Source: a virus. From it: a stretch of 33,884 nt of DNA. Position numbers and translations under genes: made by a program. The notes beneath the pieces were generated by a model. It was given only the letters and a program-made list of their open reading frames with translations. It did not search any database and was not told where the DNA came from. The stretch spans positions 1 through 33,884 of the IMG/VR virus record IMGVR_UViG_3300031669_000134, one strand, 5' to 3'. This document shows positions 3,500-29,215 of this stretch, piece after piece (within the stretch, counting starts at the first letter, position 1; the number at the start of each line of letters is the position of its first letter).

Positions 3500-5626
3500 C
3501 TAAAGAACGAATTCAGCCGCCGAAATGATGGCGTCCATTTCCTCTTTTGTCTTAATTGATCCGGGGTCTTCTCCTTCGGGACACTTGATCGTGTATTGTG
3601 GCAGCTTCCCACGCATCAATCCAATACACTGTGACGTTCCTTCTCGTCCTGCGTCATTTCCATCGAGGAACCAATATACATCTAGTCCCCAACGCAGTAG
3701 GAGAGACGCGTGTCCAGAGGTAAGCCGAGATCCAAGAAGGGCGACTATGTTTCGATGACCAAACATCCACGGTCGCCACACGTCAGGCATTCCTTCAACA
3801 ACAATCACGCGCTTAAGGGACAGATCGATCTTATGTTCACCATAGAGATACCGACCTTTTGAGAATCCCCAGTACGCGTACCACTTCGGCAGCTGATGCT
3901 TGTAGATCGATCTTCCCATCATACCGACAAGATCACTGTCGAGATTGCGGACCGGAACTACAAGCCGGTGCCGAAGATCGTCGTATCCAAGTTCCCATTC
4001 TTTGCACGTATCTATCGTCAACCCTCGACCATCTGGAATCGGGGCGACGGCGTACCGAGGGACGCGACGTGCAAACGGAGCTAGTTTGCTCTCGTCAAAC
4101 AGGACTTCCTCTTCCGGAGCATCGTCGCTGAACACCGCGTCGAGACGAGCTTGGAGATCTGCGCACTCAAGCTTTTCCGCGAGTTCGACTGCCTCGTCGT
4201 GCTGCCCGCCAGAGAGGTGATTCACCATCTTTGAGAGCGACGTAATCGTTCCTCGGAATCCGCATGCTCCTGACCAGCACATGCAGGCAGAGTCTCCAAT
4301 GGGATCGACCTTGATCGACATGCTCGGATTCTCGTCTCGCCCTTTTGGATGCTGCCACTTCGCGAGGGGGCAATTGTGTACCGCGACTGCTCCAACTGCG
4401 TATGTTTCCCCCACGCCGACCGTAAGATTGAATACGTCGCCAGAAAAATGCTTGACTGCCCTCTCTTTAACTGGATACGCCATCATCCCGCCAATGCGGC
4501 GGCCAGCGCATCGTGAGGGCTTCTTGGCCCACGCTACACACCACGAGTCACTATGATGCACTCCATTACGATCAGTCCTATCCATCTTTCTCGTTAATCG
4601 GCACGGTATCCCAAGTCTCGAAAGCAAAATAATGAGATGCGTGCTTAATCCAACTGAAATAGTCTCGACCGCTGTCCAGCTTCCTGCGCGAACTGATTTA
4701 CCAGCGTACGTATAGCCATCACCCTCAACCAATCCATCAATAAATCCACGTATCACATCATTGCTTCCCTCAATAATGCACGCCGGAACTCGCTTGTTTG
4801 CCGCCCCGGACCCGAGCATGTCCTCGAACCATCGTGCCAACATGGCACTCCCAACGAACAAATTATGACAACTCCCGCGAGGAGTTCCAGCCGTGGTTAG
4901 GCCAAACTTATCCCGAACTAGCCGTCGGCACCGGCTTATCACAGATTCCCCGGTGCCAAAACTGAACAAAAGGGCATTCGGCGTATTTTTATAGTAACTG
5001 ATGCTGCCCTCCGCTGCCCATAGCCCGAATAAGTATGCCAAGTCATAGTCTAGTACGTAGCTAGTCGGAACGGTAAGTCTAGTATGTCTAATTCCTCCGT
5101 GAGGCATCGCAGTTGGCCGATCGTACTTAGCTATATCGATTATTATTTCAGAGCAAGCCGCAGGAGTGTTTGGGACAACCACAAAATCACCGACTGATAT
5201 ATCTCTGATAGGGCGCAATTCTACGTCAACACCACTTAAAATTTCCCCTGCAGCACCCCGACTATTCTTTCCTAGCTTTCGTCGGAACTGGCGTATCTTA
5301 CCGATCGCTGACTGTACTTTGTGACGAGGAACCATGAATGTCGGGTGCTCTGCGGTCGCTGTAACAGCCTGATTTAGTCCCCGTACTTTTAACGTAACCA
5401 CTTGACCAGAATACTCACGAGAATGGACTGCCGTAACTGGCTTAAGCCCGCGATCAAACGTCACGACCCGTGACCCAATGGGCACCTGCTCAATTGCAGT
5501 TATCCCATATTCGGTGAGGATGGGAGTTCCGGCGGGAAAACACGTTGAATAGACGTTCCGACTTCCGGAGTTGTACTCGGATACGTTCAGCTTTCTCAGC
5601 ACACGAATGATGTCAGTTGAGTTCAT
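3500..5626 (-). CDS. DNA primase (zinc ribbon + TOPRIM), intein-containing
   Basis: Precursor of 708 residues; the spliced product would be about 318. Immediately after the N-terminal extein (28 residues, ending NVYST) the zinc ribbon is rebuilt as CPLAKWQHP and later CMCWSGACGF, a CHC2-type primase zinc-binding domain that reads template DNA. The C-terminal half carries a TOPRIM catalytic core: VIVVEGMPDV (about residues 608-617, with the conserved Glu) and FLDGNDAGREG (about 653-663, with the DxD-like acidic pair). The protein should make RNA primers for the fork. Start ATG at 5626 has AAGGAATACG upstream and lies 15 bases after the helicase stop. It sits between helicase and SSB, as expected for a primosome operon. 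The helicase-binding domain of bacterial DnaG is not evident, as in many short phage primases. Confidence 0.9.
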   Translation of the reverse strand: MNSTDIIRVLRKLNVSEYNSGSRNVYSTCFPAGTPILTEYGITAIEQVPIGSRVVTFDRGLKPVTAVHSREYSGQVVTLKVRGLNQAVTATAEHPTFMVPRHKVQSAIGKIRQFRRKLGKNSRGAAGEILSGVDVELRPIRDISVGDFVVVPNTPAACSEIIIDIAKYDRPTAMPHGGIRHTRLTVPTSYVLDYDLAYLFGLWAAEGSISYYKNTPNALLFSFGTGESVISRCRRLVRDKFGLTTAGTPRGSCHNLFVGSAMLARWFEDMLGSGAANKRVPACIIEGSNDVIRGFIDGLVEGDGYTYAGKSVRAGSWTAVETISVGLSTHLIILLSRLGIPCRLTRKMDRTDRNGVHHSDSWCVAWAKKPSRCAGRRIGGMMAYPVKERAVKHFSGDVFNLTVGVGETYAVGAVAVHNCPLAKWQHPKGRDENPSMSIKVDPIGDSACMCWSGACGFRGTITSLSKMVNHLSGGQHDEAVELAEKLECADLQARLDAVFSDDAPEEEVLFDESKLAPFARRVPRYAVAPIPDGRGLTIDTCKEWELGYDDLRHRLVVPVRNLDSDLVGMMGRSIYKHQLPKWYAYWGFSKGRYLYGEHKIDLSLKRVIVVEGMPDVWRPWMFGHRNIVALLGSRLTSGHASLLLRWGLDVYWFLDGNDAGREGTSQCIGLMRGKLPQYTIKCPEGEDPGSIKTKEEMDAIISAAEFVL
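4373..5542 (-). mobile_element. Intein in primase gene, LAGLIDADG type, 390 aa
   Basis: Spans precursor residues 29-418. It begins CFPAGTPILTEYG (block A), has TATAEHPTF (block B), endonuclease helices LAYLFGLWAAEG and FIDGLVEGDG, and ends VGAVAVHN; +1 is Cys419. The +1 cysteine is also the first zinc-ribbon cysteine of the primase. The CFPAG start is shared with the SSB intein, which suggests the two are related. The DNA of its middle part looks more AT-rich, with more rare-looking codons, than its flanks, consistent with acquisition from elsewhere. Confidence 0.93.
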
Positions 5627-5641
5627 CGTATTCCTTATAGC

Positions 5642-8600
5642 TTAGAATTTGAATGTCGATGCCGACGACTTGCCCTTTTTCTGATCTTCCATAAGCTCTT
5701 CAAGCTGGACTTCTTGTACGAAATCGAAGTTCATCTCTTCAAGATCCCATCGAGTGAGCCATGAGTAGTCTTCGCCTTCGCGATGTTCCATGATTGACCA
5801 AAGCATCCGATTTGATGCTCGCAGATCCTTGTCTCGATACATGGCCAGACAAACGTCACAGTTATGTGCGAGAAGACCGTCTACCCAAAACGCATGCTCC
5901 TTAGAGTTAGTGAGAACATCGTACATCGGCTCAATTTTTTCGCTCGGCCTTACCTCAGTGACAGTCGCAATTACGGAGCTTCGTGGTATCGCCCACTTTT
6001 TCCGACGGGGCCTCTGCAGCGCATCCCGCAACAGAAGTTGTTTTCTGCGCCCGATGAACCCTATCTTGTCAGCAAAAGCAGCGATACCCGAGTTGGCAAT
6101 CAGAACTCGATAAGGCTGATGACGGCCAAAACGAGATACCTTAATTGGAAACATGGAACAGTCGATTCCAAGGCTCTGTAAGAGTTGAGTAGATTGACGA
6201 ACAAGATTTGGGGATACCGACGTTAACATTACGTGTCCCGCCTTAGGATCTACGCACCCATCGGTTTCGAATAATCCTCTAAGAAACGCCATCCACACAG
6301 CGGGAGTGCCGCTCAAGACTCCCGACGGAACTTCTTTTTGATGTGCGATTCCTTTTGTAAGCCCGTATACTGAGTACGCATGGCGAGCAAGCTCTCGGCA
6401 TGCCAGCACGGCGGTAAGAGTCTTTCGGTGACGGTGGATCGCCGAGAACTTGACCCCGAACGTCCGTAAAAGAAGCCGATCAAACTCGGCGATAACGTCA
6501 CTATCGTCGACATGCCCACTAAGGGACCACTGCCGTTCATGGGCAACCCAACCGTCGCCGGTCAAAATACCAAGAATAAGCGCAATCGAGTCGTCTATCT
6601 CAAAAGGAAGCTTGATATCTCGCCCATGGACCCTCCGCTCGTCTACCCGCGAAGGAGCCCCATCTGGCTCGCGCATTAAGGGCTTTGCCCTGCAGACAGC
6701 ATCTCCCGGACAAATGTCCTCAACAGCAGCCCACGAGGTGTGGCCATTTTCTAGCACCAGGAATCGGTGATCCTTTGACGCCCGAACAACTTGGCCATTG
6801 TCGAGATGGACTTCGTAGACCCGTTTCTTCCCTGTCATCATGACCCGTGCCGGAACACTGCGTAGGCCGTTCCACACACGAAGCCCCGCCTTCCCCACAA
6901 CTGAATCGAGCCGGGTGATGCCGTCGTCGGTCGATATCAATGAATCTCCGGGTAGACAATTTTGGACGATCTCATACGCATATCCGACTTTTCCCGAGTC
7001 ACCGACGAGCGAGCCTTCCTTGAGACTTCGGTTGAATTGAGTCGTCATCATGACTGGAAGCTTGATGCGATGTGCCATCGGTTGAAGCTCATCTATGACG
7101 GTCGAGACCTTCTCGTACTTGCTCCCCCACTTTCGACCGCTCGGCTCCATCAAATAGACACCATCGATGAGGATGATTCCGGGATTCAGATCTTGAACAA
7201 GGATCTCGATATCTGCGGGACACCGAACGAGTCCATCTCCGGCGATGAAGAACTCTCCCTCCGTCGCCATGCGTTTCATTTCGTCGATGTAGCGCTGAAT
7301 ACCGTCAAATCCAAGAAGACCCGATCTGAAATCTCCGAATGCAAGCGTTGAGTACATGGCATCGAAACGACGGATGATCTTATCCGAAGACATTTCCATC
7401 GTCACAAGTAGTGGGCGAGCACCCTGCCGAACGAGTTCGCGAAGGAAAAGGATCTCTCCCCACGTATTGTGGGCCACAATAAAGTTTGCAACAAAGCAGT
7501 GGGTATCGGCGACGGAAGCGTCGTAGACCTTCCTAACTCCAGCGTCCTTAATGCTGACTATCTCGTCCCAGAAAATATCGTCGGAAATAAGGAGCGACAA
7601 ATCTGATGCGGCCCGCGATTCTCCTGAGACAATCATTGCAGCGGCTACCTTACGCAGGCGATCTCGTGATATTCGGCGTTTGTTGGTTACGAGATAGAGA
7701 TTCGAGCGTCCTCCAAATTCTGCTCGCAGAGCATCCTTCGCGCCCTTCACCTCATCAACATACCGTGTTATCGTGTCAACGATCTTTGCCGTAGAGATTA
7801 CTACATCTTGAGTCGGTTTCTGCGTTCCGGGATGATTGGCAAGAATTCGGCGCTTTCGACCAATCATCTGAATGTTAGCTTTGAAGGAAGCGTAGCATTC
7901 CGACCGAACTCGATACTCCCAATTCTTGAATCCGTTATTCGTCCTTTCGCGAATCCTGCCGACTATCCCAAAGCGCATGAGCAGCCACGATAGCTGCTCC
8001 ACCATCTTCTTGGAAGCGAGGCCAATTGAAATGTCACCCTGACTGCGCTCAATCGTTCCATCGCAACTCCAAATGATCCCAATAAACCGAGCAAGCTGAT
8101 CATCTGGAAGACTGAAGACTGAATTGGGGATAATTTTTTCTGTGGACCTAAGACCAAAGACCCCGTACTTCTCAAGGAGCTTCCTCATCGGAGCCTTTTC
8201 GTGCCCCCGAGGTCTAGTCCTACTGTAGATATACCAATCATAATCACTATTCTTGGCCTTCTCTACTCGACATCCCAAGGATTCAAAGACTCTAGTAGCA
8301 TGACGCACTATCTCTCGATCCCCGTTGCTGAAGTTTGGAGTATGCCCGCTGCTGCAGCCCTCAGCGAGCATATAGGCCAATGCATCCGCCTCGTTCATGT
8401 CCATCTTCCTCGTTTGCCTGGGTCGAGGCATCCTCTTCGCGGATGCAATGTGATCACCGGTGGACAAGGAATCAGCGCGTACCCACCCCGCAGAGGTCAG
8501 AAGCGGGTGCTCTGGTGTGCAGACGATGGATCTTCCTGATCGTAACGTGATCGTCAGGCACTCTTTTGTGCCCGTATCAATCCATGTAGGGGCAGCTGTA

Positions 8601-9274
8601 ACAAGCCGCCCATCCGAGCTAAGAGTGTGGACGTTTCCACCGAACTTGTACGCGTCCTCAATAGTTCTCACTAGGCCGGTATCAGGATCAACGATGAGGG
8701 TATCTTTATCTACGCATTTACCAGTCTTCTTCGCGGCGATAAGAACCCAGAGTTCCCCGCCGTGCATTCCACGCGTGATCGCATCAAGCTGTGCCCACGG
8801 AGTACGATAGCCATCTATCATACCGTGAAGATTCTCAAGCTCGACCTGTGCTCTAACGCGGGCGTCAATCGTAAGTCGAGGATCGACGTAGTTCTTCTTT
8901 CCAAAACGCCACTTGAGCGTTTCGCTGATGATGGCACGAGCTTCGTCTACTGCGTCGGTTGCTTTCTTACCTTGTATATGTCCGACCATTGTCTTCGCGT
9001 GTTCTTGCGTTATGCCGAGCACCTTTCGCTCGAATAGCTTCTCGGCATAGTACGATAGCGGTTCGGGAGCGGGGATATCGATGTCGACACCCGTATTGGT
9101 CAGAATCGTCGGGATCGTAGGTTCTTGGCCGTGCTTCTTTGTATGTTCCGCGATGAACTTGAAGACCTTCTCACCATCGGAAATGAACAGTTCCTCAGAA
9201 ATACCGAAACGTCGGCCCTCCGCAACCCCTTCGTTTTCGACCATACGCCTGCATGCACATAGATCAATACTCAT
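5642..9274 (-). CDS. Replicative DNA helicase, DnaB-type, with two inteins
   Basis: Precursor of 1210 residues; removing both inteins (417 and 366 residues) leaves about 427, normal for a phage DnaB-type helicase. The extein ATPase is RecA-like. The P-loop AAKKTGK (180-186) is completed by Thr604 after intein 1. METS-like VTMEMSS follows, then Walker B GIILIDG (around 699-705), a TTQFN loop (744-748), and the H4-like segment GYAYEIVQN|CDVCLAMYRD that straddles intein 2. A linker region before the P-loop (SETLKWRFGKKNYVDPR) fits the N-terminal/linker domain. The enzyme unwinds DNA ahead of the fork and should work with the loader just upstream and the primase just downstream. Start ATG at 9274 overlaps the loader stop as TAATG, with GGAG upstream. 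The C-terminus is a short Ser/Lys-rich tail. Confidence 0.93.
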   Translation of the reverse strand: MSIDLCACRRMVENEGVAEGRRFGISEELFISDGEKVFKFIAEHTKKHGQEPTIPTILTNTGVDIDIPAPEPLSYYAEKLFERKVLGITQEHAKTMVGHIQGKKATDAVDEARAIISETLKWRFGKKNYVDPRLTIDARVRAQVELENLHGMIDGYRTPWAQLDAITRGMHGGELWVLIAAKKTGKCVDKDTLIVDPDTGLVRTIEDAYKFGGNVHTLSSDGRLVTAAPTWIDTGTKECLTITLRSGRSIVCTPEHPLLTSAGWVRADSLSTGDHIASAKRMPRPRQTRKMDMNEADALAYMLAEGCSSGHTPNFSNGDREIVRHATRVFESLGCRVEKAKNSDYDWYIYSRTRPRGHEKAPMRKLLEKYGVFGLRSTEKIIPNSVFSLPDDQLARFIGIIWSCDGTIERSQGDISIGLASKKMVEQLSWLLMRFGIVGRIRERTNNGFKNWEYRVRSECYASFKANIQMIGRKRRILANHPGTQKPTQDVVISTAKIVDTITRYVDEVKGAKDALRAEFGGRSNLYLVTNKRRISRDRLRKVAAAMIVSGESRAASDLSLLISDDIFWDEIVSIKDAGVRKVYDASVADTHCFVANFIVAHNTWGEILFLRELVRQGARPLLVTMEMSSDKIIRRFDAMYSTLAFGDFRSGLLGFDGIQRYIDEMKRMATEGEFFIAGDGLVRCPADIEILVQDLNPGIILIDGVYLMEPSGRKWGSKYEKVSTVIDELQPMAHRIKLPVMMTTQFNRSLKEGSLVGDSGKVGYAYEIVQNCLPGDSLISTDDGITRLDSVVGKAGLRVWNGLRSVPARVMMTGKKRVYEVHLDNGQVVRASKDHRFLVLENGHTSWAAVEDICPGDAVCRAKPLMREPDGAPSRVDERRVHGRDIKLPFEIDDSIALILGILTGDGWVAHERQWSLSGHVDDSDVIAEFDRLLLRTFGVKFSAIHRHRKTLTAVLACRELARHAYSVYGLTKGIAHQKEVPSGVLSGTPAVWMAFLRGLFETDGCVDPKAGHVMLTSVSPNLVRQSTQLLQSLGIDCSMFPIKVSRFGRHQPYRVLIANSGIAAFADKIGFIGRRKQLLLRDALQRPRRKKWAIPRSSVIATVTEVRPSEKIEPMYDVLTNSKEHAFWVDGLLAHNCDVCLAMYRDKDLRASNRMLWSIMEHREGEDYSWLTRWDLEEMNFDFVQEVQLEELMEDQKKGKSSASTFKF
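5861..6958 (-). mobile_element. Helicase intein 2 (H4-like motif site), LAGLIDADG type, 366 aa
   Basis: Spans precursor residues 773-1138. It begins CLPGDSLISTDDG, block B is RASKDHRFLV, the LAGLIDADG-like helices are ALILGILTGDG and FLRGLFETDG, and it ends DGLLAHN; +1 is Cys1139. The site splits EIVQN from CDVCLAMYRD, which aligns by position with the DnaB H4 motif (the -EQDADVV-FLYRD-type segment) that forms DNA-binding loops. All nucleophiles and both endonuclease acidic residues are intact. Confidence 0.93.
7466..8716 (-). mobile_element. Helicase intein 1 (P-loop site), LAGLIDADG type, 417 aa
   Basis: Spans precursor residues 187-603. It begins CVDKDTLIVDPDTG, block B is VCTPEHPLLTS, the endonuclease helices are ALAYMLAEG and FIGIIWSCDG, and it ends FIVAHN; +1 is Thr604. 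It interrupts the Walker A motif between GK and T, so ATP cannot be bound before splicing. A C-terminal extension of about 100 residues between the second LAGLIDADG helix and the Hint C-half (TRYVDEVKGAKDAL...) makes it the longest of the set. Confidence 0.93.
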
Positions 9275-12656: not shown

Positions 12657-14150
12657 TTATCTAATTTCTCCTGTGAATGCGTCGCCATCGACTAGCATCG
12701 GTTCGTCCTGATCGCACAAGTCACGATAACCCATGAATTGTGCGCATTGCCGGATAAACATCCTGCTGACAAACTGATTTCGTCTTCCGAACTCAAGCCC
12801 CGAGCGCTGAGCACACGCAGACATCATTTTGAACACCATTTCTATTGGTGCCGGTCTGGGCATCGCTCCGAGGGCCTTCGCGACGAGATTCTTGAATGTC
12901 ATCGAGTGGCCTTCGCCAAACTGAAGTGCATAGTGACGACGAGTCTTCTGAAGCATCCAATCGTAGATCGCTGCATTGACCTTCGATCTCTCGTAGTGAT
13001 CGCGGAGATATGGTCGAACCCGCTTTTCTAGTACGGCCTGATTCACTTTCATGTCGGCTGGCGTGATCGCATCTCTGAAGACTCGGTACATCTCCTTTGG
13101 ATTCTTTGCTCGAAGTGCCCAGTACTCCTCGGGGAGCACTGATCGATTCCACGGGCGATCAAGGAAGATGCCCACGAGACCTTGGTACATCATCTCCCAG
13201 TACGAGATGCCGAAGCCTTCCCACATCGAGAACGACAGGAATAGGTGCCCTTCCTTCAACTTTTCGTAGAAGGTCTCTCGATTACAGTTCGGATAGAACT
13301 CAATCATCGGATACTTCTTGCGAAGATCCTCGGCGCGAACATCTTCATCTGCCGGAGTCGTGGCAATGCCGTAGATCTTCGCTCCGCTCTTGAACGCCTT
13401 CTCGACGAATTCTAAGTACGTCGAGAAGCCTTTCCCTTCGACCCACCGACCGCCGAAGAATACGCAGACGCCCCTCGGGCCGACCGATTTCGGCAGCGCC
13501 GGAACATACTTATCCAGCACATCGAATCGAATTCCGCCCATCGGCGCGATGAACGAGTTTTTCAAGAACTTCTGAATCTGCTTTCCGGCAAGGTACGTTG
13601 CGCAGTTGTCGCGAGCCATGTCGAGTTCGGCCCCGCACATGAATAGTGAGTAGTCCGTCAACCATGCGACGGTCTCCGCGATCACGTCTTCTTCGCCATA
13701 GTCGGTATTCATCTGCTGGTGCTTCGGGATATTCGTGCGAACACTGCCCGTGTGATTAAAGATCGGGATGTTGATCGTGCTCTTCACGAACTTCGGCTTG
13801 AGCACCTTCTTCAGTACTGGGCTGAAGATGGCGCGAGGATTGAGTACCGCATCGTAGTAGTACGGGGTGTAGTTCACATTGAACAGATCGTACAGCTGGC
13901 GCGTTGCGATCACGCACTGCTGAATGCCCCCCGTCGTGATCATAGGAACGTAGTGAATCTTGATTCGTTCCTGCCCCTCGTAGGGAGATGAATCGTAGTC
14001 GCCCCACACCTTGTCCTTCTCCGGAAGGAGTACATCGAACCGAGCGTTCGGATACATGTCGCGAACTGACAACGCCCATTCCCACGGCTGAATGAATAGT
14101 GTCGAGAAGCCGGGGAGCTTCGTGCAGTCACTTACGATCAGAATTCGCAT
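12657..14150 (-). CDS. Glycosyltransferase, GT-B fold (GT4-like)
   Basis: A 497-residue protein. The N-terminus MRILIVSDCT starts a Rossmann-like domain. The C-terminal domain carries FFGGRWVEGKG (231-241), a donor-binding loop, and EGFGISYWEMMYQG (311-324), the E-x7-E-like nucleotide-sugar motif of GT4 family retaining enzymes. The last ~100 residues are helical and not recognised. It may glycosylate phage DNA, a virion protein or a host surface component; the sequence does not say which. ATG 14150 has GGAGG four to five bases upstream. The gene stands alone between a 389-base structured gap and a strong terminator, downstream of the envelope-protein cassette. No partner enzyme for base modification is seen in the window. 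Confidence 0.85.
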   Translation of the reverse strand: MRILIVSDCTKLPGFSTLFIQPWEWALSVRDMYPNARFDVLLPEKDKVWGDYDSSPYEGQERIKIHYVPMITTGGIQQCVIATRQLYDLFNVNYTPYYYDAVLNPRAIFSPVLKKVLKPKFVKSTINIPIFNHTGSVRTNIPKHQQMNTDYGEEDVIAETVAWLTDYSLFMCGAELDMARDNCATYLAGKQIQKFLKNSFIAPMGGIRFDVLDKYVPALPKSVGPRGVCVFFGGRWVEGKGFSTYLEFVEKAFKSGAKIYGIATTPADEDVRAEDLRKKYPMIEFYPNCNRETFYEKLKEGHLFLSFSMWEGFGISYWEMMYQGLVGIFLDRPWNRSVLPEEYWALRAKNPKEMYRVFRDAITPADMKVNQAVLEKRVRPYLRDHYERSKVNAAIYDWMLQKTRRHYALQFGEGHSMTFKNLVAKALGAMPRPAPIEMVFKMMSACAQRSGLEFGRRNQFVSRMFIRQCAQFMGYRDLCDQDEPMLVDGDAFTGEIR

Positions 14151-14524: not shown

Positions 14525-14540
14525 GTCCAATCGATTGGAC
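14525..14540. repeat. 16-bp perfect palindrome at end of holin-like gene
   Basis: GTCCAATCGATTGGAC is fully self-complementary and touches the TAG stop of the holin-like gene. Palindromes of this kind are typical of dimeric DNA-binding protein sites or restriction/methylation targets. A near copy with a one-base centre change, GTCCAATTGATTGGAC, lies inside the coiled-coil gene near 29367. Confidence 0.6.
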
Positions 14541-15019
14541 TATTTGCTTCCGTTCTTCATGTCATCGACCTTCTTACGAAGAAGCGATTCTAGGACATTC
14601 TCGCCAACCGATTTTGCGACAGCTGTGCCGAGTTCAGCTTTCGCGGCATCGATAGCCTTTTTGCCGAGCTTCTTCAATTCTTCCTTGCTGACTACGCCGT
14701 CGGCCGACGCCGCCCTCAACTCAGCGAGTTCCTTGTTGGCGAGATTCGCGGCAATACGAGACAGCACGGATTCGGCCTCGTACCTGAGCTTCTCTCGAAG
14801 TCCAGCCTTTTCGACTTCCTTCTTTGCGGCGACCGTAGCCGACCAATCAGCCGCCATCTTTGCGAGAATGGCCATCAAAGGAACCGCAATTACCCCAAGG
14901 ATGTAACCAACGATGTCCCAGAAGACCGATCCAGTCTTCGGTGGCGCTACCACAACTTCTTCAGCCAGAGCCGGAACGGCAATAACCAGTGCGGCGATCA
15001 ATGTGAACAGCTTCCTCAC
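14540..15019 (-). CDS. Holin-like / exported helical protein (LLH-like)
   Basis: From GTG 15019 the 159-residue product begins MRKLFTLIAALVIAVPALA, a textbook signal peptide with an A-x-A site. I prefer this GTG to the overlapping ATG 15037 because GGAGG lies six bases before it and the ATG version would put WRC in front of the signal. A second hydrophobic helix follows (WDIVGYILGVIAVPLMAILA), then a long charged helix (KKEVEKAGLREKLRYEAESV) and a Lys/Ala-rich C-terminus. Two hydrophobic helices plus a charged coiled-coil tail resemble LLH-type phage holins. It is the last gene of the envelope cassette. Alternative: a periplasmic or inner-membrane structural protein of unknown role. Confidence 0.75.
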   Translation of the reverse strand: MRKLFTLIAALVIAVPALAEEVVVAPPKTGSVFWDIVGYILGVIAVPLMAILAKMAADWSATVAAKKEVEKAGLREKLRYEAESVLSRIAANLANKELAELRAASADGVVSKEELKKLGKKAIDAAKAELGTAVAKSVGENVLESLLRKKVDDMKNGSK

Positions 15020-15025
15020 AGCACA

Positions 15026-15030
15026 CCTCC
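15026..15030 (-). promoter_or_regulatory. Ribosome binding site deciding GTG start of holin-like gene
   Basis: Minus-strand GGAGG six bases before GTG 15019 and inside the alternative ATG 15037 reading, so it supports the shorter product with an intact signal peptide. Confidence 0.7.
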
Positions 15031-15033
15031 AAA

Positions 15034-15477
15034 TCATAGATCCTTAAATGCCTTGGCGAAGTCGCCCCTATTTCCGAACAGCCACTTTCCAAGATTGTAG
15101 ATCACGTCGACAATCGGAAGTGCAAGTGTGAGAATCATGCACGGCAAGAGCCACGCTGTACGCTGTGCCCAAAACTCTTCCCTGTTCATGAATGCGATGA
15201 TTCCCCCAAAGAAGAGAGTGGCGTCTACGTAGTATGGCATCAGCAACGTCGTCTTGTTCGCCTCGCCCGTAAAGCGCACGTAGCCCCAGTACCATCTCCC
15301 GTCGATTCTGCTTGGGAGATACTTGAACTCGACGATACGAAGACCTTGGCGCTTCGCGCCAAGCGCGTGCGCTCCCTCGTGCTTCAGAGTTCCTATGATC
15401 TGGTAGAGGGGGTAAAGAATGATGTGGATTACCCATATCCACCACGGGAAGTCTTTGAGGATGTCGAGATAGGTCAC
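15034..15477 (-). CDS. Integral membrane protein with HExxH motif (M50-like metallopeptidase candidate)
   Basis: A 147-residue protein starting at GTG 15477 (GGAGG four bases upstream; GTGA overlap with the previous stop). A first membrane helix (residues ~11-29) is followed by LKHEGAHALGA, where His33, Glu34 and His37 form an HExxH zinc site. Hydrophobic segments at ~84-98 and ~107-125 follow; Asp89 in PYYVDA could be a third ligand. HExxH next to a membrane helix, with an Ala/Gly-rich continuation, is the pattern of M50-type intramembrane peptidases, but the C-terminal NPxDG motif is not seen. It lies between a transglutaminase-like gene and a holin-like gene. It could cleave a membrane or cell-wall-linked substrate; it may also be a non-enzymatic relative. 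Confidence 0.78.
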   Translation of the reverse strand: MTYLDILKDFPWWIWVIHIILYPLYQIIGTLKHEGAHALGAKRQGLRIVEFKYLPSRIDGRWYWGYVRFTGEANKTTLLMPYYVDATLFFGGIIAFMNREEFWAQRTAWLLPCMILTLALPIVDVIYNLGKWLFGNRGDFAKAFKDL

Positions 15478-16025
15478 GCTGCCTCCGGAAAGGATGCGCC
15501 GATTCCATAGATATAGACGAAGCCCGTCTTGTCTCCGTAGAATGTGCGTACTGCACTCTGAGGATCTGCAAACCCGCGCTTAACGTGCTGATTGGAAACC
15601 AGCGTCCACTCGGGTCCGGTCCGAACGACGAGAACACAATGACCGCCGCCATCGACGCTGTAGCAAGACGCCCTGTGCATCTCGTCGACGTTTCCTTTGA
15701 GGACGAACCGAGCAACCGCCATCATGTCGTCGCAGTCGCCGTGATTCTTCGCCACGGCTACCCACGGCTTCGACACGAAGTCAATCAGTCCCCCAGCAGG
15801 ATCTGGTCTCCACGTGAAGTGTCGCTGGTTGTACCAGAATGAGATGTCCTCAATGAAGTGAAGCTGCTCCCGAATCATCTTGAGATCATGCAACGCCTCT
15901 TTGCGATGGAAGAGATACCGCAAGGCTTCTAGATTCGAGAGCACGAAACTCGTAACGGGTCTCCAGATGCGGAAGATGAAGAACCGAATAGCCGAGATCT
16001 TGTTCGCGCGAATCCAGAAGGTCAT
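15474..16025 (-). CDS. Transglutaminase-like cysteine protein
   Basis: A 183-residue protein. KNHGDCDDMMAVARFVL (Cys98) and GGGHCVLVV (His129) are the Cys and His positions of transglutaminase-like/papain-fold domains; the GDCDD context is typical of bacterial transglutaminase-like cysteine proteins. An Asn or Asp near SNQH (145) could complete a triad. The N-terminal 40 residues are basic and hydrophobic (FFIFRIWRPVTSFVLS) and could attach to the membrane. ATG 16025 is chosen over 16085 because it overlaps the previous stop as ATGA; the ribosome binding site is weak, as is common for coupled genes. In this cassette it may process or cross-link a cell-envelope component, or act as a peptidoglycan peptidase. 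The substrate is unknown. Confidence 0.78.
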   Translation of the reverse strand: MTFWIRANKISAIRFFIFRIWRPVTSFVLSNLEALRYLFHRKEALHDLKMIREQLHFIEDISFWYNQRHFTWRPDPAGGLIDFVSKPWVAVAKNHGDCDDMMAVARFVLKGNVDEMHRASCYSVDGGGHCVLVVRTGPEWTLVSNQHVKRGFADPQSAVRTFYGDKTGFVYIYGIGASFPEAA

Positions 16026-16465
16026 ATGATCGATCCAATGATCTTCGCCCCGATGGACAATGCCTTGCGGCCTCCGCGCTTCCACTTCTCGCGCTTCGTC
16101 TCGGCCTTGATCGCCTTGTTGAGCGCTCCCAAGAGTCCGTCAGGGTCGTCAGTCTCATCAACCTCTGCCGGAATCTTCTTCTCCGGCATCGCCGCAATAG
16201 CCTCGTCGGCAAGAACCTGAATCGCGTTTCCCGCGAGCTTCTTTGGATTCGCATTCTTCATGGCGTTTGCGATCTCAGCAACCTTCGCAATCTTCTCCGG
16301 ATCAGGAAGCTTGTCGATTCCAGTCTCCTTCATCAGAGCCTTGATCGTCGCATCCTTCGCATCCGACTTGAGCTTGTCGAGATATTTGCGCCCTCGCGTA
16401 AGTACGTAGAGAGCGACGAGGACAAGAATGACGAGAAGTCCCCACTGTGCCATGAACTCTTCCAT
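16022..16465 (-). CDS. One-TM membrane protein with charged helical tail
   Basis: A 147-residue protein. After MEEFMAQ comes one membrane segment (WGLLVILVLVALYVLT), then a long Lys/Asp-rich helical domain (KYLDKLKSDAKDATIKALMK) and a basic, amphipathic end (KRGGRKALSIGAKIIGSII). Topology suggests N-out/C-in or the reverse, as for inner-membrane spanin subunits or holin accessory proteins. ATG 16465 has AAGGAGG seven bases upstream and overlaps the lipoprotein stop (TGATG); a GTG directly before it is possible. It follows a small lipoprotein-like gene, an order that suggests a two-component spanin, but the length and lack of strong coiled coil keep this tentative. Confidence 0.72.
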   Translation of the reverse strand: MEEFMAQWGLLVILVLVALYVLTRGRKYLDKLKSDAKDATIKALMKETGIDKLPDPEKIAKVAEIANAMKNANPKKLAGNAIQVLADEAIAAMPEKKIPAEVDETDDPDGLLGALNKAIKAETKREKWKRGGRKALSIGAKIIGSII

Positions 16466-16728
16466 CACTCCACCTCCTTGGGTGCTCCAATGAGATCGGC
16501 AAGACCTGATGTCACTACCGTGAGATCACGTGCCCGCTTCAGGAGAGCCTTGCCTTTCTCGGTTCCGGAAATCTTCTCCCCGGTATTGAGCGTCATGTCG
16601 GACAACTCACGAATCTCCGTCTCCTGTAGTTCCGTCTTGTTTGCAATCTTCCGAGACAAGTTTACAGTCGTCCCCGAAAGACAGCATGATGAGCACAGCA
16701 GTGCCACTACGATCATTAATTTCTTCAT
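16465..16728 (-). CDS. Small exported lipoprotein-like protein
   Basis: An 87-residue product with a clear export signal, MKKLMIVVALLCSSCCLSG. Cys15 or Cys16 after a short hydrophobic core is an imperfect lipobox (C-S-S-C rather than L-A-G-C), so a lipid anchor is probable but not certain. The rest is a soluble helical domain (TELQETEIRELSDMTL) with no recognised motif. ATG 16728 overlaps the stop of the 36-residue mini-gene (ATGA), with GAGGAA upstream. It may be the outer-membrane subunit of a spanin pair with the next gene, which would imply a Gram-negative host, or a superinfection-exclusion lipoprotein. Confidence 0.7.
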   Translation of the reverse strand: MKKLMIVVALLCSSCCLSGTTVNLSRKIANKTELQETEIRELSDMTLNTGEKISGTEKGKALLKRARDLTVVTSGLADLIGAPKEVE

Positions 16729-16835
16729 GAGTTCCTCGAATCCTTGAAGTTCTTCACATCATCGAGCGCGTAGTTCTTCTCCTCGTTGAACATGGAGAAT
16801 GGGTTTCGGCTGTACTTGCCGGTGTATCCGCCCAT
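16725..16835 (-). CDS. 36-aa mini-protein repeating the fibre N-terminal tag
   Basis: The product starts MGGYTGKYSRNPF and continues FNEEKNYA; it matches the first 23 residues of the 1228-aa fibre at 19 positions and the 844-aa fibre almost as well. It then diverges (LDDVKNFKDSRNS) and stops. The TGA overlaps the lipoprotein ATG (ATGA), so it looks translated. There is only a weak ribosome binding site (GAGATG). It is either the remnant of a third fibre gene or a stand-alone peptide that occupies the same docking site on the baseplate as the fibres. Confidence 0.65.
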   Translation of the reverse strand: MGGYTGKYSRNPFSMFNEEKNYALDDVKNFKDSRNS

Positions 16836-16861
16836 CGTTACATCTCAATCGTCCTCAGACG

Positions 16862-23110: not shown

Positions 23111-24808
23111 TCACGGACCTTCTATTCGGACAACGTATGACGTGTCCGCAGGAGCGAACTGGCTCATGATCTTTGCGAGCGACTCAAGTTCTTCCGTCGA
23201 CACGAACTCTCCGGCAGCAAGAATGATCCACACCCGGAGGATCTCGAAGCTATAGATATCGGACGGATCTAGCACTTTTCCCGGAACTCGGACCCTGTCA
23301 GGATAAATTCCGTCAAACTGATCGACGACTGGAATATCCCAGATGAATCCGGTACTATCGTCATACCAATCGTACGCCGGACTGACCAGAGCATTATTCG
23401 CAACAGTATACGAGTTCTCCGTCGGCTCGTCGAGAGTCAACACTGTTGACGAGGGGATATCTAATACGACGATCTGCTCGCCCTCCGGAGTTACGGAGTC
23501 ACGAATCGTGATCGTCTTTCCAGCCTCAAACGGTGACGTATCGTCAACGGTAATCGACGTTGCACCTATCGAGACGTTGGCAGTTACGTGAGGAACGCCG
23601 AACTGAACGCACCGCCATAACAGTGTTCCGTCCGCAACAACGTCTCCCGGGATGGTTGGCCACGTTGGCTCGGTTCCTCCCGCAACCCCTGTCTCTCTCG
23701 TCTGATAGTAGTATCCCGTCCGATTTGCCAGAGTCGGCACTACGATGTCTCCGCGTGAGTACGGAGATCCGGCTCCTGCGTACTGGGGATATGCTCCAGC
23801 AAGCTGTCCTTGGGCGCTAAGCCGTGTCGTACTATTTGACATCATGATATGTCGCGACATTGGATCGACAAAGACGTCATTTACCCCAACTGCCTGACGA
23901 AGTGACGGCTCAAGTGACCGCGTCGTTCCCTTGATCTTGTATGTTGGAACTGCCGCCATGAGCGAGTGGCGTTGCTTATTCGTTGGAAGAGTTGTATTTA
24001 GTTCCCATCCAAGAAGACCTGCCAGCATGGGAAGCAATTCTGGTAGAGTCTCATCCGGATCAACTGCTCTCGGGTAGAAATCTATCGCTCCACGAATCCT
24101 CGAAAGCGCTAAGCCAAAAATCGAAAGAAATCGCTCGAATTCTCCACGAGCAACGAATCCTGTCTCGTGAATAGCGCTCCATACGTCGTAGAAATCCGGA
24201 TCTTGTTGTGGAGATAGCTTTACTTGATTCGATTCGGCATCAGCATTTCTATAGGCCGAAGGAACTTTTCTGGCCAGTAGTCGTTGCATGTACTCAGAGT
24301 CCCACGTGAACGCAGAGTCCTTTGATACATCAGTCGTTACCCAACTTGGATTTGCTCCAATACATCTCCACAATACATCTCCATCCTGAACCGTACTTCC
24401 AATGATCGTTGGCCACGTCGGCTCAACCGAACCCGCAAGACCTCTCGACTGTGACTCGTAGAAATACCCCGTTGGAGATGCCAGCGGGATTACCACGGCT
24501 CCTTGCTGATACAACAAATCCGGGCTCCACGCCTGTGTGCCGCTGTAGTAGATGTACGCCGCGTAGCACCAGACTGTGTCAATGGAAGGATTGAGATCTA
24601 CGTAAGACGTTGGAGAACTGGCGACAGGGCTGTTGACGAGAATTGTTCCGTCATTCTCATCATCCGGATATGCTTTCTCCTTCTTGAGAACGCGTATATT
24701 CAGACTTCCAGTATCTATTGGCAAGTTCCACCGAAGAAGGATCTGCGGACCTTCCATGACTGGATCAGCGGTGAAGTTTGACACGAATGCGCCAATATAC
24801 TCAGCCAT
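23111..24808 (-). CDS. Baseplate tail protein, gpI/TIGR02242-like (copy 1)
   Basis: A 565-residue baseplate protein. Residues ~10-85 look like a fibronectin-III-type beta domain (GPQILLRWNLP ... VWCYAAY). Residues 206-310 carry the gpI-like core (FERFLSIFGLALSRIRGAI, DETLPELLPMLAGLLGWEL, KIKGTTRSLEPSLRQAVG), the part that joins baseplate wedge and fibres. Two copies of a ~50-residue module occur (around 100-149 and 350-400), each with GYxY, EPTWP, DG and LWRC. Residues ~409-475 form a separate beta domain (ITVDDTSPFEAGKTITIRD). The protein ends FAPADTSYVVRI, as does its paralog. It is next to the fibre genes. It is tandemly duplicated with the following entry; why two are needed is unknown. 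Confidence 0.85.
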   Translation of the reverse strand: MAEYIGAFVSNFTADPVMEGPQILLRWNLPIDTGSLNIRVLKKEKAYPDDENDGTILVNSPVASSPTSYVDLNPSIDTVWCYAAYIYYSGTQAWSPDLLYQQGAVVIPLASPTGYFYESQSRGLAGSVEPTWPTIIGSTVQDGDVLWRCIGANPSWVTTDVSKDSAFTWDSEYMQRLLARKVPSAYRNADAESNQVKLSPQQDPDFYDVWSAIHETGFVARGEFERFLSIFGLALSRIRGAIDFYPRAVDPDETLPELLPMLAGLLGWELNTTLPTNKQRHSLMAAVPTYKIKGTTRSLEPSLRQAVGVNDVFVDPMSRHIMMSNSTTRLSAQGQLAGAYPQYAGAGSPYSRGDIVVPTLANRTGYYYQTRETGVAGGTEPTWPTIPGDVVADGTLLWRCVQFGVPHVTANVSIGATSITVDDTSPFEAGKTITIRDSVTPEGEQIVVLDIPSSTVLTLDEPTENSYTVANNALVSPAYDWYDDSTGFIWDIPVVDQFDGIYPDRVRVPGKVLDPSDIYSFEILRVWIILAAGEFVSTEELESLAKIMSQFAPADTSYVVRIEGP

Positions 24809-24810
24809 CG

Positions 24811-26514
24811 CTATATCTCTTCAATTCTTACGACGTACCTAGTGTCAGCAGGAGCAAACTGGGTCATGATTCGTGCAAGCCGCTCCAACTCTGGATTCGT
24901 CACCGCTTCTCCGGCTTCAAGAAGGAACCATACTCGGAGAATCTCGAAGCTATATAGTTCAGATGGCTCAAGCACGGCACCCGGAACTCTGATTCTATCG
25001 GGATAGATTCCGTCGAATTGATCTATGACCGGAATGTCCCAGATAAATCCAGTCTCATCGTCGTACCAATCAAATGCCGGTGACACGACTGCTTCGTCTG
25101 CGGGTCCATAGCTATTGTCGAGGGCTCGCTCAAGCTCTAATGTTACTGAGTCGACAACTTCGGCCACGATGATGTTCTCGCCCGCCGGGGTAGCCGCGTC
25201 TCGTACGTTGATCGTCTTTCCAGCTTCAAATTCTGACGTGTCGTCTACGATGAGCGTTGTCGCAGTAGCGACGGCAGCGGCCGTGAGGTGAGGAACTCCG
25301 TACTTTCGTGTCCGCCAAGTGACGCTACCATCGACAATGTCTTCCAGCGAGGTAGTGGGCCACGCCGGTTCCGTACCGCCGCTCGTACCTGCGCGAGTCA
25401 CTTGATAGTAGTACCCCGTACGATTCGCGGATGTTGGAATAACAATGGTTCCTCGTGCATAGGCAGTCGTAGCAGTCCAATCAGGATACGCTAGTTCCTG
25501 TCCTCCTCGCGCTCCAAGTCTGTTGATTCTGTTCGACATCAGAATGTGCCGCGACATCGGATCAAGAAAGGCCGCATTGACGCCAGCAAGTGGGCGCAAG
25601 AGCGACTCAAGGCCACTCACTGTCCCCTTGGTTTTGTAGACTGGAACCGCCGATAGAATTTCCTGCCTTTGAAACTGTGTTGGAGACGTCGTACTAAGTT
25701 CCCACCCAACGATTCCAGCAAGCTTCGATAGGTATTGAGGAAGACATTCGTCAGGGTCGACGAGTTGCGGATAGAAATCGGCAGCACCCTTTACCCGAGA
25801 TAGCGCGATCCCAAATATCGATAGGAATCTCTGAAGCTCGCCCTTTTCCGTTGTACCAGTCTCGCGTATCGCTCTCCATGTTCCATTGTCAGATAGGTCA
25901 ACAGCAGGAGCTAGTTTTTGCTGCGCCGAATATGCGTCGAGTCTTCGGTACTGAGATGGAATGCTCCCAAATAGCAACTCGCGCATATACGATGCGTCCC
26001 ACGTTATCGAGGCGGCTCTTGCCCGTTCACCGGTAATCCAACTTGGATTTGTTGATCGACAGACCCACGTGATTTCTCCGTCAACAGACTGTATCGTATC
26101 GCCAATTACTTCTGGCCACGCGGGCTCAGTTGTTCCGGCCGTTCCCTTATTCAAAGCCTCGTAGAAATAGCCGTTTGGAGTCGTCGGAACGACAGTCTGG
26201 CCAACCTCAAATACAGTTGCGGATGCCCATGTCTGTTGTGCATTATGATACGTAAATAGCGCGTAACACCACGCTCGATGAATCATCGGATTCAGGTCTG
26301 CGTAATATGTCGGAGATCCCCCTACCGTGGAACTCAGAAGCTCGTCTCCGTCGGCAATATCTTCGGGATACGCAAGAAGCTTCCTGATCAACTTAATGTG
26401 CGTAGAATCTTCGTGGGTCGGCAGATCCCACGTCAGCACGATCTGCGGGCCTTCCATTACGGATTCTGCTGCCATATTGTAGGCAGTTATGTATGCATCA
26501 GACTCCGTGGCCAC
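24811..26514 (-). CDS. Baseplate tail protein, gpI/TIGR02242-like (copy 2)
   Basis: A 567-residue paralog of the 565-residue protein encoded directly downstream, with the same domain order. N-terminal beta domain (GPQIVLTWDLP), first EPAWP/WVCR module, gpI-like core (LQRFLSIFGIALSRVKGAADFYPQ, ECLPQYLSKLAGIVGWEL), second EPAWP/VTWR module, and beta domain (LIVDDTSEFEAGKTINVRD). It ends APADTRYVVRIEEI. Start is GTG 26514, overlapping the gpJ-like stop as TAGTG, with GGAGGAG upstream. Likely forms, with copy 1, the connector that holds the two different fibre types, one per copy; this pairing is inference. Confidence 0.85.
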   Translation of the reverse strand: MATESDAYITAYNMAAESVMEGPQIVLTWDLPTHEDSTHIKLIRKLLAYPEDIADGDELLSSTVGGSPTYYADLNPMIHRAWCYALFTYHNAQQTWASATVFEVGQTVVPTTPNGYFYEALNKGTAGTTEPAWPEVIGDTIQSVDGEITWVCRSTNPSWITGERARAASITWDASYMRELLFGSIPSQYRRLDAYSAQQKLAPAVDLSDNGTWRAIRETGTTEKGELQRFLSIFGIALSRVKGAADFYPQLVDPDECLPQYLSKLAGIVGWELSTTSPTQFQRQEILSAVPVYKTKGTVSGLESLLRPLAGVNAAFLDPMSRHILMSNRINRLGARGGQELAYPDWTATTAYARGTIVIPTSANRTGYYYQVTRAGTSGGTEPAWPTTSLEDIVDGSVTWRTRKYGVPHLTAAAVATATTLIVDDTSEFEAGKTINVRDAATPAGENIIVAEVVDSVTLELERALDNSYGPADEAVVSPAFDWYDDETGFIWDIPVIDQFDGIYPDRIRVPGAVLEPSELYSFEILRVWFLLEAGEAVTNPELERLARIMTQFAPADTRYVVRIEEI

Positions 26515-28466
26515 TACGCTCCTCCGGTAAACGAAAGCGTTTGTGTGTCAAGTTGTCGGATCTCGAAGTCCTCGATTTCGACGTTGTTCACGTACTGCGA
26601 CGTTCGGAAAACAGCGCGGTCGTTGTTCGCCATTGGAGTTGGATTTAGTGATGGATAATCGAGCTTTATCTTCAATGCCGAATCAGTGGTCAAGATTTCT
26701 ACCCCGACGCTAGCAACTCCTCCCGGAGTCACATTCACCCCTCCCACGTCTCTAACGACATACGTCGATGAACCAGTGAATGTGATCGTGTATTGCTGGT
26801 CGATTAAATTCAACGTGTTCTGACCGATGATGTAGGTCACGTCGACAGGAGTCGCCGGAGCAACCTCCCAAATCAATGTATTCGCCGGATTCAGCGTTAA
26901 CTGGAAAATGTCGACGTGGTCGACTCCGGTAACATTGTCGATGAGAGCCATTAGGTCAGATAGGTTAACGTCCTTTCCGAACTGAGCTTCTTCTGACGTT
27001 ACGGCGAAGAAGGTCTCGATCACGCTCTCAACGAGAATTCGAACATCAGTCCAATCATACGTCGAGATCACATCCACCGTAGCGACAAGGAGGATTCCAA
27101 CAACATTAACCGGTCCATTCACGTACACCGTTTCTCCGGCCATTGCTCGTTCTTGAAGATAGACGCGAACCTGTTCGACGAGAGTTGCACTGGGTGTATA
27201 GCTCCCAAAAGGAACAATGTAGACATCAATCTCTCGAAATAGGGGAGATCCTCGACGAACCGCGCTGGCCTCTCGAACACCGGTTACTGTTCGCGCAAGA
27301 GTCGCGTAATCTTCGAGAGTAACGGCCCGGCCAAGCGCACGTAGCGACTTTGGCCCAAGCAGCTTTGCGTCGTCGATACTCTGTTCTTCTGCACCACCAG
27401 ATGCTTGTTCTGGATTCGTGACCTCGAATGTTACCGGACCTCCCGACGACGAAATCGTGTCGAGAAGTCGCGTGATCTTGTATGCGCCAACGTTTCCGAC
27501 CGTGCCACCTCCAACGCGGTAGATTGACGATACAGTGGCACCAGCATTTGGAATTTTGCCTTGCGTCCCATCACCAAATCTGACGATCACGTCGCCAGTG
27601 AAGTTCCGCGAGAGTTCGTACACCTTCTGCCCCGGAGTCGCATACCCGAGGCTTTCTATCTCTTCCCAGATCTCAGGGACACCCTCATCGACAATGATTC
27701 CAACTGACCCCTCAATGACGTCGTCGCGAGGTACCTGCATTATCTGCCATGCTTCGCCAGTACTAACGCCAATGTCGTCACTATATGTTGTTCCCTCTTG
27801 AATTCCAATGCTGACAATCATCGCCGATAGCCGTGCGGTTTGCGCAATAGTGTATGCGTTAGCGAGATCCGTCTCGAAGATGATCGTCGAAGAATCGGGA
27901 ATTGACGCTATGGTGATCAGTTCGTTAGTCGCGGTATCGTCGCGGATATTGACTCTATCTCCAACGTGAAAATCGAGCGAATTCGTTACCTTGATCTCGT
28001 TTGAAGCAAGGGGTGATCCCGTATTCTGTGTCAAGGTTGTGTATGCCATCACGTATTCGTCCAATGTATTGAACGAAATCGGTGATCCGCCGGTTCCTGC
28101 TGGAGCCTGTAGCCGCGTTGCTCGTGGAATCGTGATCGATTCGTCGTACGGAGCATCCTCGATCGTGAATTCCTCGTCGGCAGTAGCCGCCTGCTTTCCG
28201 GGAACGTTGTAGTCTATGAGCTTGAGAAGATTGACCACTGACTGTCTTGTGAACGCAGTAGGTAGATAGAGATCCTGTGCTCTTCGGTCGACGTAGAAAT
28301 GAAGAATGTCTGCCGCGTACGAGAATAGCTCGATTAGTACGATTCCGAGGTCGTTAGGATTTCGATCAGTCCATTCAGGTGTGAAGTATGGAATGAGTCG
28401 GATTAAATCTGATCGAATGCTGTCGAAATCGCGAGAGAAATAGTCAATAGTTGGTGCTTGTGCCAT
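26514..28466 (-). CDS. Baseplate J-like wedge protein
   Basis: A 650-residue baseplate wedge protein. N-terminal RDFDSIRSDLIRLIPYF ... WTDRNPNDLGIVLIELFSYAADIL and the following YLPTAFTRQSVVNLLKLI are hallmarks of gpJ-type (T4 gp6-like) proteins. Central VIVRFGDGTQGKIPNAG and the C-terminal ...ALGRAVTLEDYATLARTVTGV plus FGKDVNLSDLMALIDNVTGV complete the pattern. A beta-rich insertion (residues ~157-214, IKVTNSLDFHVGDRVNIRD) resembles the ~67-residue domain in the two gpI-like proteins. It sits between gpW-like and gpI-like genes, the usual order. Start ATG 28466 has a purine-rich AGGAGGA region upstream. High confidence in family. Confidence 0.92.
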   Translation of the reverse strand: MAQAPTIDYFSRDFDSIRSDLIRLIPYFTPEWTDRNPNDLGIVLIELFSYAADILHFYVDRRAQDLYLPTAFTRQSVVNLLKLIDYNVPGKQAATADEEFTIEDAPYDESITIPRATRLQAPAGTGGSPISFNTLDEYVMAYTTLTQNTGSPLASNEIKVTNSLDFHVGDRVNIRDDTATNELITIASIPDSSTIIFETDLANAYTIAQTARLSAMIVSIGIQEGTTYSDDIGVSTGEAWQIMQVPRDDVIEGSVGIIVDEGVPEIWEEIESLGYATPGQKVYELSRNFTGDVIVRFGDGTQGKIPNAGATVSSIYRVGGGTVGNVGAYKITRLLDTISSSGGPVTFEVTNPEQASGGAEEQSIDDAKLLGPKSLRALGRAVTLEDYATLARTVTGVREASAVRRGSPLFREIDVYIVPFGSYTPSATLVEQVRVYLQERAMAGETVYVNGPVNVVGILLVATVDVISTYDWTDVRILVESVIETFFAVTSEEAQFGKDVNLSDLMALIDNVTGVDHVDIFQLTLNPANTLIWEVAPATPVDVTYIIGQNTLNLIDQQYTITFTGSSTYVVRDVGGVNVTPGGVASVGVEILTTDSALKIKLDYPSLNPTPMANNDRAVFRTSQYVNNVEIEDFEIRQLDTQTLSFTGGA

Positions 28467-28477
28467 CGGTAGTCCTC

Positions 28478-29215
28478 CTACGCCGGAGTTTCCATGTTAA
28501 ATGGATACACCAAATTTCCTTCTCGGTGCGTCCTAAACGTCCTGAACTTAATGTCGGCAAAAACCGTTCCGGCAACTCTATTTCGTCGTATGATGACGTT
28601 CGTTACTTCGGCTCGATGCTCGAAGTCTGCCAACGACGCTTGAATGGATGCCGCGATATCCTGCCCAATGAGTGTATCGGGAGCGAAAAGCTTTCCAGCA
28701 AGAGGAGACCCAAATTCTCGTCTAATGAATCTACTCATCACCCGAGTAAGCAGAACTTGCTGCATCCCATCGACGACGTGATCAATTCCCGAATTGACCT
28801 GTGGAGCGCCGGTGGCGGTTGAGAAAGTGAACGGAAATGCGAGACCCGCTCCCATTGGACCCGCCTGTTGTACGGCAGTGCTCGCCGTTCTCGTGATCCC
28901 AACACCAATTTCCGGCTGTTCCTCTTCTTCTAGCGGCCGAATGATTACGCTCGCAGCCATTCCCGGTTGCGACCAGTCGATTGGAACCGACCCATCTCCG
29001 GAAATGACGACGAGTGAGTAGCTGATACCTCGCCTCGGAACGATGACTATCATCGTTCCCGGAGCACTGATCTGATTGCTGGCCACCACATTCGCGTCCA
29101 TATCGAATAACTCGGCCCTGAACACCACGGCGATTCCTGCCACATTTACGGTTACTTCACGAGTTTCGTGATTGATGTTCACGATAGATGCAGTTGGCCT
29201 AGCTGGTGCTGGCAT
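28478..29215 (-). CDS. Baseplate W / gp25-like wedge protein with N-terminal beta domain
   Basis: A 245-residue protein. Residues ~120-240 are the gp25/gpW-like domain: GLAFPFTFSTATG, VDGMQQVLLTRVMSRFIRREFGSPL, IAASIQASLADFEHRAEVTNVII. This domain starts sheath assembly at the baseplate. The first ~100 residues are an Ig-like or beta-sandwich addition (IVNINHETREVTVNVAG, MIVIVPRRGISYSLVVI), so the protein is about twice the family length. ATG 29215 lies inside the end of the upstream coiled-coil gene (17-base overlap). Neighbours on both sides are baseplate genes. The role of the N-terminal addition is not known; it may bind another wedge component. Confidence 0.87.
   Translation of the reverse strand: MPAPARPTASIVNINHETREVTVNVAGIAVVFRAELFDMDANVVASNQISAPGTMIVIVPRRGISYSLVVISGDGSVPIDWSQPGMAASVIIRPLEEEEQPEIGVGITRTASTAVQQAGPMGAGLAFPFTFSTATGAPQVNSGIDHVVDGMQQVLLTRVMSRFIRREFGSPLAGKLFAPDTLIGQDIAASIQASLADFEHRAEVTNVIIRRNRVAGTVFADIKFRTFRTHREGNLVYPFNMETPA

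Follow-up and report, generated by a model that had tools for sequence, protein, structure and literature searches.

A 36-codon open reading frame beside two phage fibre genes is most likely a leftover of fibre-gene duplication and loss

Introduction

Why does a phage genome carry, directly downstream of two fibre genes, a 36-codon ORF that begins like both fibres and then ends? The ORF lies in viral record IMGVR_UViG_3300031669_000134, and the whole stretch of 33,884 nt that was analysed is referred to here as the window (Table 1). It might encode a small protein acting at the baseplate, and if it is true that such a peptide docks, the phage would have an unusual self-encoded competitor for its fibre sites. 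It might instead be what remains of another fibre gene.

Table 1. Features of the fibre and baseplate region of the window.
Feature	Position	Strand	Remarks
M50B-like membrane protein	15034..15477	-	First gene after the fibre region in common with phage L023
Small lipoprotein-like ORF, 87 aa	16465..16728	-	Signal peptide and lipobox (by eye)
Stop/start overlap ATGA, short ORF/lipoprotein ORF	16725..16728	-	
Short ORF, 36 codons	16725..16835	-	Residues 1-23 copy the fibre N-terminus; sequence MGGYTGKYSRNPFSMFNEEKNYALDDVKNFKDSRNS
Tag copy, codons 1-24 of short ORF	16764..16835	-	Patchwork of fibre A-like and fibre B-like codons
Gap after fibre B, 26 nt	16836..16861	-	SD-like TGAGGA ~17 nt from short-ORF ATG
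Fibre B, 1228 aa	16862..20548	-	N-terminal 417-aa DUF6519-like anchor domain
Fibre A, 844 aa	20561..23095	-	N-terminal domain as in fibre B, C-terminus different
Tail_P2_I-type protein, second copy	23111..24808	-	Candidate fibre-docking partner
Tail_P2_I-type protein, first copy	24811..26514	-	55% identical to second copy
Baseplate J-like protein	26514..28466	-	
gp25/GPW-like baseplate wedge protein	28478..29215	-	

Results and Discussion

The Short ORF Copies the Start of Both Fibres

The short ORF was found at exactly the coordinates and on the strand given in the initial annotation. Its match to both fibres, also proposed there, is real but not exact, with 19 of residues 1-23 (83%) identical to fibre A and likewise 19 of 23 to fibre B. 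Searches with blastp inside the window gave E-values of 7e-12 and 2e-11 against the two fibres. Among 949 other open frames shorter than 130 aa there was a single match past 1e-3 (an antisense frame, 5e-4); since such frames almost never match the fibres, the similarity of the short ORF is not due to chance. At the DNA level the likeness covers 74 nt at 78-80% and ends sharply at about nt 73, that is, at codon 24. No match was found for residues 24-36 (LDDVKNFKDSRNS), including in both fibres and in the related phage L023 (see below), and the lipoprotein ORF downstream matched neither fibre nor L023.

The shared element had been described as a tag of only 23 residues, which is too narrow. Fibres A and B have ~417 N-terminal residues in common at 57% identity, and the 23 residues are therefore merely the point at which the short copy stops. 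Nor is this the best conserved stretch of the two fibres, as its 24-residue window has 20 of 24 identities against a maximum of 22 of 24. Beyond the N-terminal domain fibre B appeared repetitive and beta-helix-like by eye, and residues ~530-840 of fibre A are similar to known phage fibre or hypothetical proteins.

The Fibre N-Terminal Domain Resembles DUF6519/eBAP5

The N-terminal domain of the fibres was recognised by neither Pfam nor PHROGs. Its conserved pattern, SRD-F...K-Y...LMQ-x-G...D-x-D-x-N, pointed to DUF6519, a relationship that was then tested by profile comparison with hhalign, using DUF6519 reference proteins from plasmid records. The profile of the two fibres matched DUF6519 at 84%, and a three-fibre profile did so at 92.6% (~93%; E 5e-7, score 59.6), whereas the highest values among 60 column-shuffled controls were 0.8% and a score of 22.3. 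A relationship to DUF4815 was dropped (0.6-0.8% in hhalign). On these profiles the domain belongs with DUF6519/eBAP5 of extracellular contractile injection systems, as a divergent relative. The two have [YF]SR.., K.Y..., LMQ[QE]G, D.D.N[DE] and G..G.P in common, and the order of gp25, baseplate J, Tail_P2_I and fibre genes in DUF6519 injection-system loci is also that of the window, where gp25 and baseplate J are followed by two Tail_P2_I genes and two fibre genes. The fibres differ in escaping the Pfam model (PF20129 matched nothing in the window at its curated cut-off of 22.4 bits), in aligning over only ~90 residues, and in having an insertion of three residues behind the SR motif and a longer stretch ahead of it; the short ORF has the first motif only. 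The AlphaFold model of the domain (pLDDT 31.7) was too poor for judging whether it has the shoulder-like fold with an inserted beta domain, and a search of solved structures returned no relative.

The name eBAP5 was recently given to DUF6519, which is predicted to be a baseplate anchor and has Tail_P2_I proteins as its proposed partners (PMC12923769). Because of this homology, and because the fibre genes directly follow those for baseplate J and Tail_P2_I, an anchoring role of the fibre N-terminus can soundly be inferred. A type of anchor described mainly in injection systems would thereby be extended to a divergent phage lineage.

Could the Short ORF Dock by Itself?

To call the copied residues a fibre docking tag, as the initial annotation did, was a fair guess in view of the homology and of the Tail_P2_I genes just upstream, but the 23 residues do not hold the core motif. 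The short ORF stops ahead of the LMQ-x-G / D-x-D-x-N core of the anchor domain, and docking by the short ORF alone is therefore mere conjecture. We consider it rather improbable that it encodes a functional mini-protein whose tag binds docking sites on Tail_P2_I, capping empty sites or setting the occupancy of each fibre. The tag forms the beginning of an anchor-like domain, the duplications of Tail_P2_I and fibre suggest that sites may be shared, and the ORF is intact and coding-like throughout, with its fibre likeness held over 23 residues. Against these points, the conserved [L]MQ-x-G...D-x-D-x-N core is missing, A14 and V15 are changed, the ribosome site is weak, and the ORF is absent from every other locus examined. 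A more specific form of this reading, in which the 36-residue peptide is made, occupies the Tail_P2_I sites and caps them so as to tune the ratio or number of the two fibres, is more doubtful still, and no support was found for the earlier proposal that it caps or competes for docking sites.

A precedent for a short N-terminal peptide of a receptor-binding protein serving as an anchor comes from Klebsiella phage KP32, in which RBP2 docks to RBP1 via a conserved peptide, CP (PMC13082707). In the excerpted text of that source, CP always continues into the remainder of its protein, and a free-standing peptide is not mentioned (PMC13082707); we claim no sequence relation between CP and the tag of the short ORF. 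A literature search for truncated or decoy fibre peptides found nothing.

Comparison with Related Loci

The viral collection was scanned with fibre A, baseplate J, two tag DNA patterns, the fibre pair, the Tail_P2_I pair and the three-fibre alignment. These scans returned only a near-identical contig, phage L023 (IMGVR_UViG_3300007900_000688) and a weak, irrelevant match (L024). The near-identical contig, the sole viral record of its kind, stops inside fibre B before the site of the short ORF, which leaves L023 as the only informative phage relative. L023 has the same baseplate module with its gene order intact (51% identity to the window in baseplate J, 37% in Tail_P2_I and, by tblastn, ~43% in the fibre N-terminus), but with one Tail_P2_I gene, one fibre and no counterpart of the short ORF. 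Downstream of the fibre, the next recognisable gene common to both phages is that of the M50B-like protein (34%), which in the window is separated from the last fibre by the short ORF and three further ORFs. From this comparison it follows that the lineage of the window differs by extra adaptor and fibre copies and by a different post-fibre segment, and the short ORF sits at the junction of the fibre genes with that segment.

The short ORF was thus not conserved as a separate ORF in the one informative relative. Its absence from relatives, named in the initial annotation as evidence against the proposal, was observed in one distant relative, L023. A tag-only ORF was also absent from the eight DUF6519 injection-system loci examined, and the tag motif from Streptomyces and gut phages whose baseplate J is similar. 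Scans of genome contigs gave no matches, and a match to Pectobacterium phage CBB was dropped (E 2).

The duplication of Tail_P2_I (23111-26514) parallels that of the fibres, both being single in L023, which suggests adaptor-fibre pairs. Tail_P2_I residues ~350-478 also match a stretch within the baseplate J gene of L023 (L023 7370-7696), suggesting an insert domain in common. The region at 14540-16728 (-) is a cluster of small, overlapping, membrane or lipoprotein-like ORFs, of which only the M50B-like ORF is common to L023; weak matches to a transglutaminase-like protease and to a holin also fall within it. After the fibre/lysis-like region, 12657-14150 (-) encodes a 497-aa protein with a weak match to glycosyltransferase group 1.

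Translation Signals and the Overlap with the Lipoprotein ORF

In the gap after fibre B, an ATG-TAA start-stop sits between the SD-like TGAGGA, the closest good ribosome-binding sequence, and the ATG of the short ORF. The sequence upstream of the short ORF resembles the ribosome site of fibre A plus ~8 nt, a likeness that is suggestive only, as its score lies between the 99% and 99.9% levels of random 27-mers and is borderline. The ribosome site of the short ORF looks displaced. The start-stop also provides fibre B with a second stop in frame. An Rfam search gave no match.

At its other end the frame closes, as had been reported, in an overlap with the next gene: the stop of the short ORF (16727-16725) and the ATG of the lipoprotein ORF (16728-16726) form ATGA. 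It is possible, though unlikely, that the overlap is the whole point, the peptide being irrelevant and the ORF a leader whose TGA hands terminating ribosomes on to the overlapping ATG of the lipoprotein ORF. Consistent with this, the SD of the lipoprotein ORF (GAGGA) falls within the last codons of the short ORF, and no promoter or terminator signal above background was found around it. However, that SD-like site is the lipoprotein ORF's own, four-base overlaps are routine in phages, and a leader would leave the copying of the fibres unexplained. Such a role is compatible with the short ORF being a stub of a fibre gene.

The Tag Copy Is a Patchwork

Codons 3 and 5 of the tag copy are those of fibre B, codons 7-12 those of fibre A and codons 17-23 again those of fibre B, with codons 6, 13-15 and 24 private to the short ORF. 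The informative sites fall into three blocks, B-like, A-like and B-like (p = 0.001 by site, 0.024 by codon). This is the pattern expected if tag copies had exchanged sequence, and the earlier suggestion that the tag is a substrate for recombination fits it, at the modest significance of the codon-level test.

Programmed diversification of the fibres, with the copy as template of a diversity-generating retroelement or as part of an invertible fibre segment, might be considered on account of this codon-block patchwork and of a partial fibre copy adjoining fibre genes, but we regard it as highly improbable. What is copied is the 5' end, the copy lies in direct orientation, its differences are not limited to adenines, and the window proteins that were searched included no recognisable reverse transcriptase or invertase; retroelement and inversion models were rejected on orientation, location and substitution pattern. 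Equally hard to credit is an assembly artefact in which fibre reads were joined to the lipoprotein region. The record is metagenome-derived and its sister contig ends inside fibre B, but there are many sites at which the copy is unlike either fibre, and identical runs, as read from the alignment, extend to no more than ~25 nt, which is not enough to confuse assembly.

In comparisons with either fibre, the differences in the tag are for the most part silent (dN 0.09-0.12, dS >1). Nearly all of them are shared with one fibre or the other, and the low pairwise dN/dS is mostly inherited from the differences between fibres A and B. Private nucleotide changes in codons 1-23 comprise four nonsynonymous and two synonymous ones, so replacements are not depleted; they produce A14S and V15M at positions invariant in fibres A, B and L023. 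These changes appear compatible with no selection, although counts so tiny cannot reject purifying selection. The codon score of the tail of the short ORF was 0.40, against 0.28 +/- 0.22 in genes and -0.49 +/- 0.48 out of frame, which is consistent with either a working ORF or the original 3' terminus of a gene since lost.

A Probable Stub of a Third Fibre Gene

Overall, the short ORF is most likely what duplication and loss of fibre genes left behind, and not a working decoy, and we think it is probably, if by no means certainly, the stub of a third fibre gene left by internal deletion or incomplete duplication. Such an event may have occurred at a variable site just downstream of the fibre genes, where the start codon and first 24 codons of the anchor domain would have been joined in frame to 12 unrelated coding codons. 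Internal deletion, with loss of everything except the first 24 codons and the last dozen, would account economically for the survival of the start and tag, for a tail that resembles gene sequence and for an ATGA overlap that looks native. Alternatively, a partial duplication may have been spliced onto the end of another gene. Of the two options in the initial annotation, the evidence favours deletion of a third fibre, but apart from the 5' end no trace of such a fibre, its C-terminal part included, was detected in the window, and a partial duplication would look the same. We know of no relative with a full third fibre. A counterpoint is that the frame is intact and compactly overlaps the next gene, as in functional phage genes.

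Exchange of sequence among the tag copies would have followed, giving the A/B patchwork. Translation of the stub, if any, is probably low and by reinitiation after fibre B, and its main consequence may be translational coupling, with the ATGA overlap passing ribosomes on to the lipoprotein ORF. The locus would then represent a fibre cassette caught in turnover, with adaptor and fibre duplicated, a third fibre reduced to a stub and exchange among the tag copies.

Elsewhere in the window, inteins were seen in three replication genes, all on the minus strand: two Hint/LAGLIDADG inteins in a DnaB-type helicase (5642-9274), one in a Toprim primase (3500-5626) and one in a further replication gene (1381-3342). 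A truncated PolA gene (3-1334) looked, by eye, to be interrupted near the window edge.
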